This document shows, piece by piece, positions 10,046-17,515 of a stretch of DNA of 64,000 nt. How positions within the stretch are numbered: the stretch's first letter is position 1; every line of letters begins with the position of its first letter. Where the stretch lies: positions 4,030,001 to 4,094,000 of the forward strand of contig NZ_CP042912.1 of assembly GCF_008087665.1 (NCBI RefSeq), in the 5' to 3' direction. Origin of the DNA: Mariniblastus fucicola. GTDB taxonomy: Bacteria; Planctomycetota; Planctomycetia; Pirellulales; Pirellulaceae. A model generated the notes under the pieces. It saw nothing but the letters and a program-made list of their open reading frames with translations. It did no database searches and was not told the origin of the DNA. Position numbers and translations under genes: made by a program.

Positions 10046-10459
10046 ATGAAACCGCTCCGGTACATCTTGGTAGTCGTGGCTTGCCTTGCTTTGGCGATGC
10101 CGACGTACGCGTTTTCATCGTGTGCTTGCAGCGACAGCCCAACGGCAAGTTGCTCCTGCGCCAGTGCCTCGCAAAGTCCTTGCGGATGTTGCAACTCTGA
10201 AGCATCGAGATCGCCGTGTTGCGGTGATGTGGAGTCGGAAGACTGCTGCCCGAACTGCAATTGCTCGTTGGATGCGCCTACGGACGAAGCGGTTTTGCAA
10301 GACTTACGGCCCCAAGACAATGTTCTGGTCGCTCTTCTGCCAAGCTTCGAATTGGCACCTCGTTTACCCGTTCGATTGATCGCGGCGTGTCAACTTTGCA
10401 GACCGCCTCCGATCGAACACAACCGCAGACAGGCAACGCTCGGGGTCTGGCTGAAATAA
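10046..10459 (+). CDS. cysteine-rich secreted protein, unknown function
   Basis: 137 residues. The N-terminal signal peptide (MKPLRYILVVVACLALAMPT) ends in AxA at about residue 22. The next 50 residues hold 13 cysteines in CxC, CC and CxCC arrangements. The remainder is free of cysteine except for a CQLC near the C-terminus. This pattern suggests metal binding or dense disulphide bonding in the periplasm or outside the cell. No named family is recognised. It is followed 53 bases later by a second cysteine-rich secreted peptide on the same strand, so the two are probably co-transcribed. No good ribosome binding site is visible. Confidence 0.65.
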   Translation: MKPLRYILVVVACLALAMPTYAFSSCACSDSPTASCSCASASQSPCGCCNSEASRSPCCGDVESEDCCPNCNCSLDAPTDEAVLQDLRPQDNVLVALLPSFELAPRLPVRLIAACQLCRPPPIEHNRRQATLGVWLK

Positions 10460-10512
10460 TTCTTCATGTGGATTGCTGTTTTCTTTTTCAACAACAATTT
10501 ATGGAGAATTCC

Positions 10513-10737
10513 ATGATTCAAAAAACGCTTCTAGGCCTCGCACTTTGCAGTGCGTTGATTGTTACCCCTTTCGCATTCGCTTCTTTCAACGCCCCAGCGC
10601 CGACCGCGGCTTGCGAGTGTTGCGGAGATGCTTGTGAGTGTGACGTTTGCGTCTGTGACGCGAACGGCTGTGCTTGCGACACAGGCGGTGACTGCTTTTG
10701 CACCATCGATTGTTGCGCCGTTTGCTGTGACGACTAA
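10513..10737 (+). CDS. small cysteine-rich secreted peptide (metallothionein-like composition)
   Basis: 74 residues. A signal peptide (MIQKTLLGLALCSALIVTPF) is followed by AFASFNAPAPTA. The mature part of about 42 residues then contains 15 cysteines in CxCC, CECDVCVCD and CxC spacings, with many Asp and Gly. The composition is metallothionein-like, but export argues for extracytoplasmic metal binding or cross-linking. The start at 10513 is chosen because GGAG sits six bases before it; an in-frame ATG at 10501 lies within that site. It pairs with the preceding cysteine-rich gene and is closed by a strong terminator. Confidence 0.75.
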   Translation: MIQKTLLGLALCSALIVTPFAFASFNAPAPTAACECCGDACECDVCVCDANGCACDTGGDCFCTIDCCAVCCDD

Positions 10738-15067: not shown

Positions 15068-17515
15068 ATGTTTCGCCTTTCAGTCATTCTGCTCGTCCTG
15101 ATCCCACTCGCCGGATGCAACAGCGAAAAATCGATCCAACGTCAGCCAACAGCCGCCGACGTACACCGCGAGACGATCGAGCAAATCATTCAGTCGGAAT
15201 CCACGATTCTGGATCTTGCTCCTTACGTGTCTAAAATCGCTGACTCGATGACCAAGTCCGGACAGGAATCGAAAGAATCGCTGCGGGAGATTTTCGCCGA
15301 CACGACCAACTACCTTCGCATCAACGCAAGCTCGCCAACCGCCACCAGCGAATTTTTGGACGAGCTTTGGCAGCCCTTTCTCGCAGAACGCAAGTTCGCT
15401 GAATGCCAGTTCGGAACGCTCTCCGGCACATTCGCCGAATCCGGTCAACGCTTTGACATGAAGACCAAATTCGAAGGCAAGATTCGCGATGGCCAAGCCA
15501 TCACGGGCGTCCAGGCGACTCAAACAATTACGTGGACTCGCATCAACAAACTCTGGACGATCACCGCCTGGACGCAGCATACTTTTGAAGTCAGTGAATC
15601 AGAACAACCGTTGTTTGCCGACGCGACGGACAGCTTCATTGCTGAGGCCGATACACGGTCAGCCGTAACCAGATCTTCGCACCAGCAACGCGTGCTCGAT
15701 GCAGTCAACGCAAAAACCGTGATGGAACCTCTGGTCGACGGACTGCCTGGCTTCAACGACTGGGAATCCGCCTGGCAATTCCCTTCGGTCAGCATCGTCG
15801 ACTACGACAACGACGGCTGGGACGATGTCTTCCTGACAGATCGCTGGGGCGGTGGCATGATGCTGCACAACGTCGAAGGAAAGCTGATCGACACGACCGC
15901 GGAATCAGGTTTGGATGTCGGCGCGGGTTCGAATTGCGTTGTCTTCGCGGACTTCGACAACGATGGAGATCCGGACGCGTTCGTGGGCCGCTCCCTCTCC
16001 GACAGCCAGTTTTTCATCAACGAAAACGGGACATTTCAGCTCGATTCGTTAACGACAGAAGGTTTGAGTTTCGTTCGACTGGTTACAGCCGGTTCGGTCG
16101 CGGATTTCAACGGAGACGGTTTGCTCGATTTGTATCTTTCGACTTACGTCTCGCCATCGGGCTTCGCGACAAAAGACTGGATCGGGAAAATGATTGCGGA
16201 ATCGGATCGTGAGAAGATGGCAAACATCGGCAGCCAACATCCGTTCATCGATCGCGGCGGTCCAGCAAACATTCTGCTGATCAATGAAAATGGAAAGCTG
16301 AAACGTTGCGATGCATCGGAATCGATCAAGCAATGGCGGAACAGTTATCAGAGCGTGTGGCATGATTGGGACAACGACGGTGATCCCGATCTGTTTGTCA
16401 GCAACGATTTTGCACCAGACTCGTTTCTTCGCAACGACACGGTCAAGGGAAGCAACAAGCCCGTGTTCGTGGACGTTACCAGGGAGTTGATTGGCCCTGA
16501 CATCATGGGTTACAGCATGGGCGCGTCGTGGGGAGACTTCGACAACGATGGCGATCTGGATTTGTACGTTTCAGAAATGTACTCCAAAGCGGGTAACCGG
16601 ATTCTGGAGCAGTTCTCCGAAGCGGATCGTCGCTCGGTGGAATCGGCCAAGGGTAATTTCCTGTTCCGCAACGATGGCGGAAGGTTTACGCAAGTCGCGG
16701 GCTCAGCTGAATCGAACCAACACGTTGCAAAAGTTGGCTGGTCGTTCGGCGGACAGTTTGCGGACTTCAACAACGACTGCTGGTTGGACCTGTACGTTCC
16801 CAGCGGATTTTATTCGGCTCCGAAATCCGTGCGTTGCGACGCAGATTTGTGATCGTGCAATTGGCGCGCGGTCGCGCGACTGGACCCACAACAACCAATC
16901 GAGTTCCGGGAACACGCTGCTTGGAGTGAACTCGATGACACGCTTTCCATTTTTCAGATTGATCCGGACACCGACGCGGTGAAAGGATTCTCGTTCAGCG
17001 GCAATGAGCGCAATCGTCTATTCCTGAATCGGGCGGGAACTTTCGAGGACGCGACGTTGACTTCCGGAGTCGATTTCACCGAAGACGGCAGAGGGTTCGC
17101 GGTATGCGATTTGAACAACGACGGAATCCTGGAAATGGGAATCGTCTCAAACCAGAGCCCTCGATTTCGAATCGCTCAGTTCAACGATCAGAAATTGGGC
17201 GGAAATCAGGCGACCGGCGGCAGCGTTCGAATTCGGCTGATCGGCGGAAATCAGTCGGCGACTCCGAATATGAAGCTGAGCCCTCGTGACCCGGTGGGAG
17301 CCATCGTGATTGCGAAAACAGACAACCAGACGCGAATGTTTCAGCTTTCCCGCGGCGAGGGGTTTTCCTCCCAAAATTCGCACTTCGTTCACGTTGGTCT
17401 GGGAGACCGTTCTCAAATTGACCAGCTGGAAATTCGTTGGCCCAGCGGAAAGATTACGGTTGAAGAAGGGATTCTCGACGGATCAGAGATTGAAATTTCA
17501 GAACCGCGGAATTGA
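15068..17515 (+). CDS. FG-GAP/ASPIC-UnbV lipoprotein with in-frame TGA: probable selenoprotein (or interrupted gene)
   Basis: The frame runs from ATG 15068 for 594 codons, meets TGA at 16850-16852, then continues in the same frame without another stop to 17515 (815 residues if read through). The N-terminus is a lipoprotein signal (MFRLSVILLVLIPLAGC). Residues about 30-200 look NTF2-like. From about 240 come several FG-GAP/VCBS repeats with calcium-type motifs (DYDNDGWDD, DFNGDGLLDLY, DWDNDGDPDLF). After the TGA come the conserved NRLFLNRAGTFED and a C-terminal ASPIC/UnbV domain (LSRGEGFSSQNSHFVHVGLG, LEIRWPSGK). The TGA would be residue 595 in the context DL-U-SCNWR. Loss of the TGA-to-end part would remove a whole domain, yet that part shows no decay. 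A SECIS-like hairpin follows the TGA. Alternatives are a recent nonsense mutation of a Cys codon or a sequencing error. The family role is unknown, and it is likely periplasmic or outer-membrane. Confidence 0.75.
16850..16883 (+). promoter_or_regulatory. candidate bacterial SECIS element after in-frame TGA
   Basis: Seventeen bases after the TGA (16850-16852) lies CGCGC-GGTC-GCGCG: a perfect five-pair GC stem (16865-16869 with 16874-16878) closed by a four-base GGTC loop. The lower stem can continue weakly past a bulged A at 16879. In E. coli fdhF the SECIS also shows a GGUC loop about 18 bases after the UGA. The spacing and loop therefore match the established bacterial pattern for SelB binding. 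This is sequence inspection only; no folding program was run. Confidence 0.6.

Follow-up and report, generated by a model that had tools for sequence, protein, structure and literature searches.

Within the 64,000-nucleotide stretch of the Mariniblastus fucicola genome analyzed here (hereafter the window), the plus-strand frame at positions 15068-17515, which contains a single in-frame TGA, almost certainly encodes a member of a selenoprotein family. The explanation that best accounts for the whole of the evidence, and that we consider highly probable, is an exported, probably lipid-anchored protein of the CRTAC1 fold in which UGA 595 would be decoded by SelB as selenocysteine (Sec) and the resulting selenol would be redox active. 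A reading made earlier from the letters of the window (the sequence-only reading) had proposed a probable new selenoprotein, and this proposal is supported by the position of the TGA among homologues, the conservation of a hairpin 3′ of it and the presence of the Sec machinery. The case is lifted above chance by the combination of the TGA column, the codon-like substitution past the TGA and the conservation of the hairpin relative to a synonymous-codon null.

Reading frame, TGA column and hairpin

The frame opens at ATG 15068 and closes with the stop at 17513-17515, and the TGA at 16850-16852 is its sole interruption, with 594 codons before it and 220 after it; the single stop and the absence of a frameshift in the sequence-only reading are thus borne out, as is, by Pfam, an undamaged architecture of FG-GAP repeats followed by ASPIC/UnbV on both sides of the TGA. 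This architecture places the protein in the CRTAC1/ASPIC-UnbV family. The features of the gene, all on the plus strand, are as follows.

15068-17515, plus strand: whole coding sequence with TGA read as Sec, a predicted exported FG-GAP/ASPIC-UnbV (CRTAC1-fold) selenoprotein of 815 amino acids (aa) (translation, homologues, tree)
15068-15121, plus strand: putative N-terminal signal with a lipobox-like L-A-G-C, residues 15-18 (Cys18), read by eye from the translation, no predictor being used
15800-15985, plus strand: the strongest FG-GAP_3 stretch 5′ of the TGA, one of four stretches in total (Pfam)
16850-16852, plus strand: in-frame TGA, predicted Sec 595 (column position in homologues)
16856-16858, plus strand: Cys597 of U-S-C, putative resolving Cys of the stand-alone subgroup (translation)
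16865-16878, plus strand: hairpin resembling a selenocysteine insertion sequence (SECIS), stem CGCGC/GCGCG at 16865-16869 and 16874-16878, loop GGTC at 16870-16873 (sequence, conservation)
17000-17137, plus strand: FG-GAP_3 stretch 3′ of the TGA (Pfam)
17294-17473, plus strand: UnbV_ASPIC domain (Pfam, E 6.7e-17)

An open frame past a stop is weak evidence when taken alone, because 3 of the 37 long non-overlapping frames of the window, that at 15068 among them, have at least 100 open codons beyond their stop. The pattern of substitution is more telling: relative to the nearest relative, differences at codon positions 1, 2 and 3 number 52, 41 and 117 after the TGA and 104, 77 and 280 before it, that is, substitution stays codon-like 3′ of the TGA as it is 5′ of it.

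When the read-through protein was compared with 60 related genomes, its own included, matches were found in 36, most of the rows listed carried exactly one internal TGA, and at least 34 of the 60 genomes had a TGA-bearing row among the matches listed. One genome (G006) has no TGA in its listed rows; in its copy at G006:C288:20430-21628 (L169) query residues 282 and 610 are matched only about 12 bases apart in DNA free of N, so that an internal deletion appears to have taken out the Sec site. For the alignment, 113 loci (L019-L048 and L170-L252) were picked for having TGA and yielded 114 rows and 113 distinct windows; the same column holds TGA in 114 of the 114 TGA-bearing rows, a figure that, given this choice of loci, tests the position of the column and not the frequency of TGA. 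The surrounding context is D-x-U-x-x-x-W, with Asp at -2 and Trp at +4 in 113/113 distinct windows; Trp599 is accordingly invariant, and the region from the TGA to a GTG at 16979 is conserved. Apart from the TGA-bearing rows, the column is occupied by Cys in a separate clade of five members and by Glu, Ala, Gln, Arg, Gly or Asn in diverged paralogues.

Three distant subtypes (L170, L171 and L280) have the form D-G-U-[RS]-C-V-W with the TGA present, and the M. fucicola genome has a second copy (G000:C1:15133-17253, L172), whose TGA lies within D-T-U-S-C-L-W-R. The codons that flank the TGA are biased as well, Leu at -1 being TTG in 80/84 sequences (background 0.27) and Ser at +1 being AGT in 65/105 (background 0.16); this family-wide codon context goes beyond what the hairpin explains.

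The five-pair stem and GGTC loop described in the sequence-only reading are present, although not quite where that reading put them: the stem begins 12 nucleotides (nt) after the TGA, and it is the loop that begins at 17 nt. The significance of the hairpin was assessed against 500 sets of synonymous-codon shuffles. A stem of at least five pairs occurs at the fixed place in 62% of 110 sequences vs 12% in the shuffles (maximum 22%), and a GGTC loop in 68% of the sequences vs 11%. Val at +7 is encoded by GTC in 87/94 sequences (0.33 in the same proteins) and Val at +8 by GTG in 86/103 (0.29); the codons under the hairpin are constrained beyond the needs of the protein. The family uses two loop registers, of four and five bases. 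Stem pairs vary on both sides: in the five-base-loop register (53 sequences), columns 18-28 hold A-T, G-T, G-C or C-G and columns 19-27 C-G or G-T. The other register also contains mismatches; 17 of its 57 sequences, for example, have T-T at 19-26. A scan of the window at Rfam gathering thresholds gave no match. The SECIS of Escherichia coli fdhF likewise has GGUC as its apical loop, about as far from the UGA, with a stem sequence that differs from that of the present family, which uses either of the two registers. As the comparison of homologues strongly suggests, the hairpin just 3′ of UGA 595, with its GGUC loop, would guide SelB and tRNA-Sec to insert selenocysteine.

Selenocysteine machinery and spread of the family

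The M. fucicola genome encodes selA, selB, selD and tRNA-Sec (selC), each scoring over its curated cut-off, so the complete machinery on which the sequence-only reading depended is in place. Across the 60 genomes, selA was detected over the cut-off in 41, selB in 42 and tRNA-Sec in 40; at least one Sec marker is present in 46 and none in 14. Among the matches listed, the TGA form occurs in at least 34 of the 46 genomes with a marker vs 0 of the 14 without (p 6e-7, or 1e-6 without genome G024; Fisher test, related rows being treated as independent). In 26 of 29 named TGA-bearing genomes selB is over the cut-off. A scan of 59 genomes with a strict 23-base motif, the reversed motif serving as the control, gave matches in 43, namely 43 of the 45 chosen as bearers and 0 of the 14 without selB and tRNA-Sec; the reversed motif matched twice in all.

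A pattern scan of species genomes returned at least 109 stretches, of which 104 could be aligned with the family directly and two more (L097 and L101) at the edge of their DNA; L096 (Bacteroidales), L124 (Arenibacter) and L153 failed to align. The named stretches come from Planctomycetota, Verrucomicrobiota (Akkermansiaceae, Roseibacillus, Verrucomicrobiales and Limisphaerales, for example) and Acidobacteriota (for example, Holophagales, Thermoanaerobaculia and Terriglobia). Profile matches with E <= 1e-100 were obtained in 68 of 294 planctomycete genomes, a search in which no more than about three candidates were scored in each genome. At the same threshold the family was found in 1 of 145 sampled Verrucomicrobiota genomes, the centre genome itself, and in this phylum it is therefore probably limited to some lineages.

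Two planctomycetes, G365 and G031, carry at least 22 copies each. In the former, 22 of the 23 strict-motif matches belong to the family and have TGA at the column position, the remaining one (L299) failing to align; in the latter, 15 members in the main alignment are joined by 7 of 7 further strict-motif matches with TGA in the column. Five doubtful motif matches, in G044, G360, G353, G018 and G207, likewise did not align to the family, and the strict motif thus has some chance hits. What is encoded in the window appears to be not one selenoprotein but a member of a multi-phylum, multi-copy family. Two records stand out: G365 (L074) combines 22 copies with no selB found at the threshold, and a record labelled Akkermansia muciniphila (L116) carries the family, with seven strict-motif matches, in a genome of 4.7 Mb, a size that, set against the usual one, presumably marks it as a misnamed metagenome-assembled genome.

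Domain architecture and relatives without selenocysteine

The window protein ends 220 aa past the TGA, its probable lipid anchor being at the other end, and has no Pfam match to an AhpC-TSA/Redoxin domain with CxxC. Six long relatives that were scanned against Pfam all contain FG-GAP, UnbV_ASPIC and AhpC-TSA, and four of them TPR as well. These relatives share with the TlpA/ResA oxidoreductases the AhpC-TSA/Redoxin match and a WATWCxxC-type motif; the difference is that here the domain, absent from the window protein, is fused behind the ASPIC domain, the distance from Sec to CxxC having a median of 274 residues (range 249-300 in 77 fused rows). In NCBIfam 20.0 the window protein has no match, and the six relatives match below cut-off only, mostly thioredoxin and TPR models, ResA and TlpA included.

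The relationship between the residue at +2 and the fusion was tabulated over 210 distinct rows, of which 85 that run off the available DNA were set aside, leaving 125, one of which (L056_+_4545) proved not to be a family member; CxxC was scored by text pattern. Cys at +2 occurs in 28 stand-alone proteins and in no fused one, whereas another residue at +2 is found in 90 fused proteins with CxxC, four fused proteins without it and two stand-alone proteins, so that 90 of the 94 non-truncated fused Sec rows have CxxC. The U-x-C redox context suggested by the sequence-only reading is present in the window protein, where S-C directly follows the TGA, but it marks the stand-alone forms, and as a general redox motif of the family it was dropped on the basis of this table.

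Structure prediction gives the protein the fold of CRTAC1, a propeller with a C-terminal domain (456 residues matched to murine CRTAC1, PDB 9etn). Repeats, an ASPIC domain past the propeller and the predicted fold are shared with the CRTAC1/ASPIC-UnbV (FG-GAP_3 plus UnbV_ASPIC) proteins, whereas an extra N-terminal domain and the D-x-U-x-x-x-W motif are particular to the family described here. The Sec-bearing stretch is left out of the profile alignment (profile 527-649, Sec at 577), and in the predicted structure Sec starts a helix in this part of the propeller without sequence alignment to CRTAC1.

From these data we infer that the family functions as redox selenoenzymes. The selenol would be the redox nucleophile; in stand-alone forms the oxidized Sec would be resolved by Cys597 of U-x-C, and most family members would use for this the WATWCxxC-type site of the fused TlpA-like thioredoxin domain. 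A redox mechanism that relies on a resolving Cys or on a fused thioredoxin seems to us fairly likely.

The five proteins with Cys at the column (D-Y-C-[ST]-x-[FY]-W) form one divergent clade on a long branch and provide the Cys homologues expected of bacterial selenoproteins. The column is Glu, Ala, Gln or Gly in 11 long paralogues and Arg or Asn in five stand-alone ones; for L254 it reads Val in one alignment (as the same gene as L160) and Glu in two others. In all 11 fused non-Sec paralogues the thioredoxin-like domain is recognizable and the CxxC is gone (LWATWDAPS, for instance). In the tree they form two clades, of seven and four: the clade of four, which includes a paralogue from M. fucicola, has lost Met484, Met504, Trp558 and Glu647, whereas the clade of seven keeps all of them. 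That paralogue (L253, G000:C1:2122500-2131000), a fused protein of 1400 aa with Gln at the column and without CxxC, Met484, Met504 or Trp558, is perhaps a dead or repurposed relative. Near it, on the minus strand, lies a separate TlpA-like protein in a 357-aa frame with the motif FWGTWCGPC. Elsewhere in the window, at 10046-10737 of the plus strand, two overlapping small frames of 137 and 158 aa in differing phases are very Cys-rich.

Competing explanations and implications

Viewed in a single genome, the frame would pass for a pseudogene with a fresh nonsense mutation or for a sequencing error, but the same TGA recurs in the column in every TGA-bearing row across many assemblies and is followed by codon-like substitution, which makes this reading vanishingly improbable. 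The frame of 178 aa that starts at GTG 16979 could suggest two proteins, a 594-aa product stopping at the TGA and a separately initiated C-terminal one; the stretch between TGA and GTG is, however, conserved and contains the invariant Trp599, and, because FG-GAP repeats flank the TGA and a single CRTAC1-type fold spans it, either half would be an incomplete fold, so we regard such a pair as extremely unlikely. A UGA read without selenium, either by near-cognate read-through, which could do without a hairpin, or because the codon is reassigned to Trp or Cys, is very unlikely as well: the hairpin is conserved, TGA works as a stop here given that it ends 12 of the 37 long frames of the window (that at 15068 included), Trp occupies the column in no row read, and the TGA form tracks selA, selB and tRNA-Sec across genomes. 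The pseudogene, sequencing-error, reassignment and two-gene readings were accordingly rejected. A role of the inserted Sec in binding a metal or the substrate within the propeller, for example together with Met484 and Met504, both invariant, and without thiol cycling, is rather unlikely but deserves more weight than these; a pure ligand would not predict that the CxxC of the fused domain is present in 90/94 Sec-bearing and 0/11 non-Sec fused proteins.

Several observations weigh against a SelB-decoded redox selenoprotein. Folding of the window hairpin as a single sequence gives z 0.13, with 102 of 200 shuffles as good, so the window sequence alone proves nothing, and the hairpin is upheld by the comparison of homologues and not by its own stability; moreover, 38% of the 110 homologues do not pass the test for a five-pair stem, among them much of the U-S-C group, which fails it by a T-T mismatch. 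Among genomes with the TGA form, tRNA-Sec is the only marker found in G002 and G029, and selB was not found at threshold in G365, G368 and G373; incomplete assemblies are the likely explanation of the missing markers in these five. Conversely, three genomes counted as markerless (G030, G042 and G059) contain selA-like matches of full length that stay under the cut-off, and G024 has the single weak family match among the no-marker genomes, outside the matches listed. As for the chemistry, a pocket for a metal or substrate would fit the two invariant Met and two Trp equally well, and few independent events lie behind the redox coupling: stand-alone U-x-C is essentially one clade, and joint loss of Sec and CxxC falls in two clades (7 + 4), so that the coupling is suggestive and not statistically established, an independent-pairs test on the tree yielding one or two pairs, too few for significance.

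With the known prokaryotic selenoprotein families the present one shares a UGA with a downstream hairpin, a Sec/Cys pair and co-occurring Sec machinery; most of the characterized families are thioredoxin-like (PMC13188914), in contrast to the beta-propeller found here. Table 1 of a 2026 review lists 119 prokaryotic selenoprotein families, and none of its rows is an FG-GAP, CRTAC1 or ASPIC-UnbV family (PMC13188914); a word search for these terms in the accessible text of the deep-Sep paper returned none (PMC12013277), and a 2016 study that described Sec machinery and candidates in two planctomycetes has none of this kind in the section on them (PMC4807772). The family is thus apparently uncatalogued, being absent from the 119-family table, NCBIfam 20.0 and the literature searched; GenBank annotations lay outside the search and may hold cases. 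Somewhat more tentatively than the redox mechanism itself, we favor a view of these proteins as an uncatalogued extracytoplasmic class of CRTAC1-propeller selenoenzymes, with more than 20 copies in some planctomycetes and mostly with either their own TlpA-like electron-delivery module or a built-in resolving Cys.

These phyla are rich in ASPIC-UnbV proteins, and we know of no function assigned to them. If the present interpretation is correct, they gain a catalytic site: a Sec column without exception points to a catalytic center and makes ASPIC-UnbV chemistry testable. That U-x-C alternates with a fused thioredoxin, and that Sec and CxxC are absent together, suggests a route by which an exported selenoenzyme may be re-reduced outside the cytoplasm. 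The deep-Sep paper names a bacterial selenoproteome of 46 proteins, the largest published one that it mentions (PMC12013277), and, if the interpretation holds, a single family would give a bacterium about half that number. Because standard gene calling would split or truncate such genes, a multi-copy class of selenoproteins, and with it the selenium demand of environmental bacteria, could be missed.
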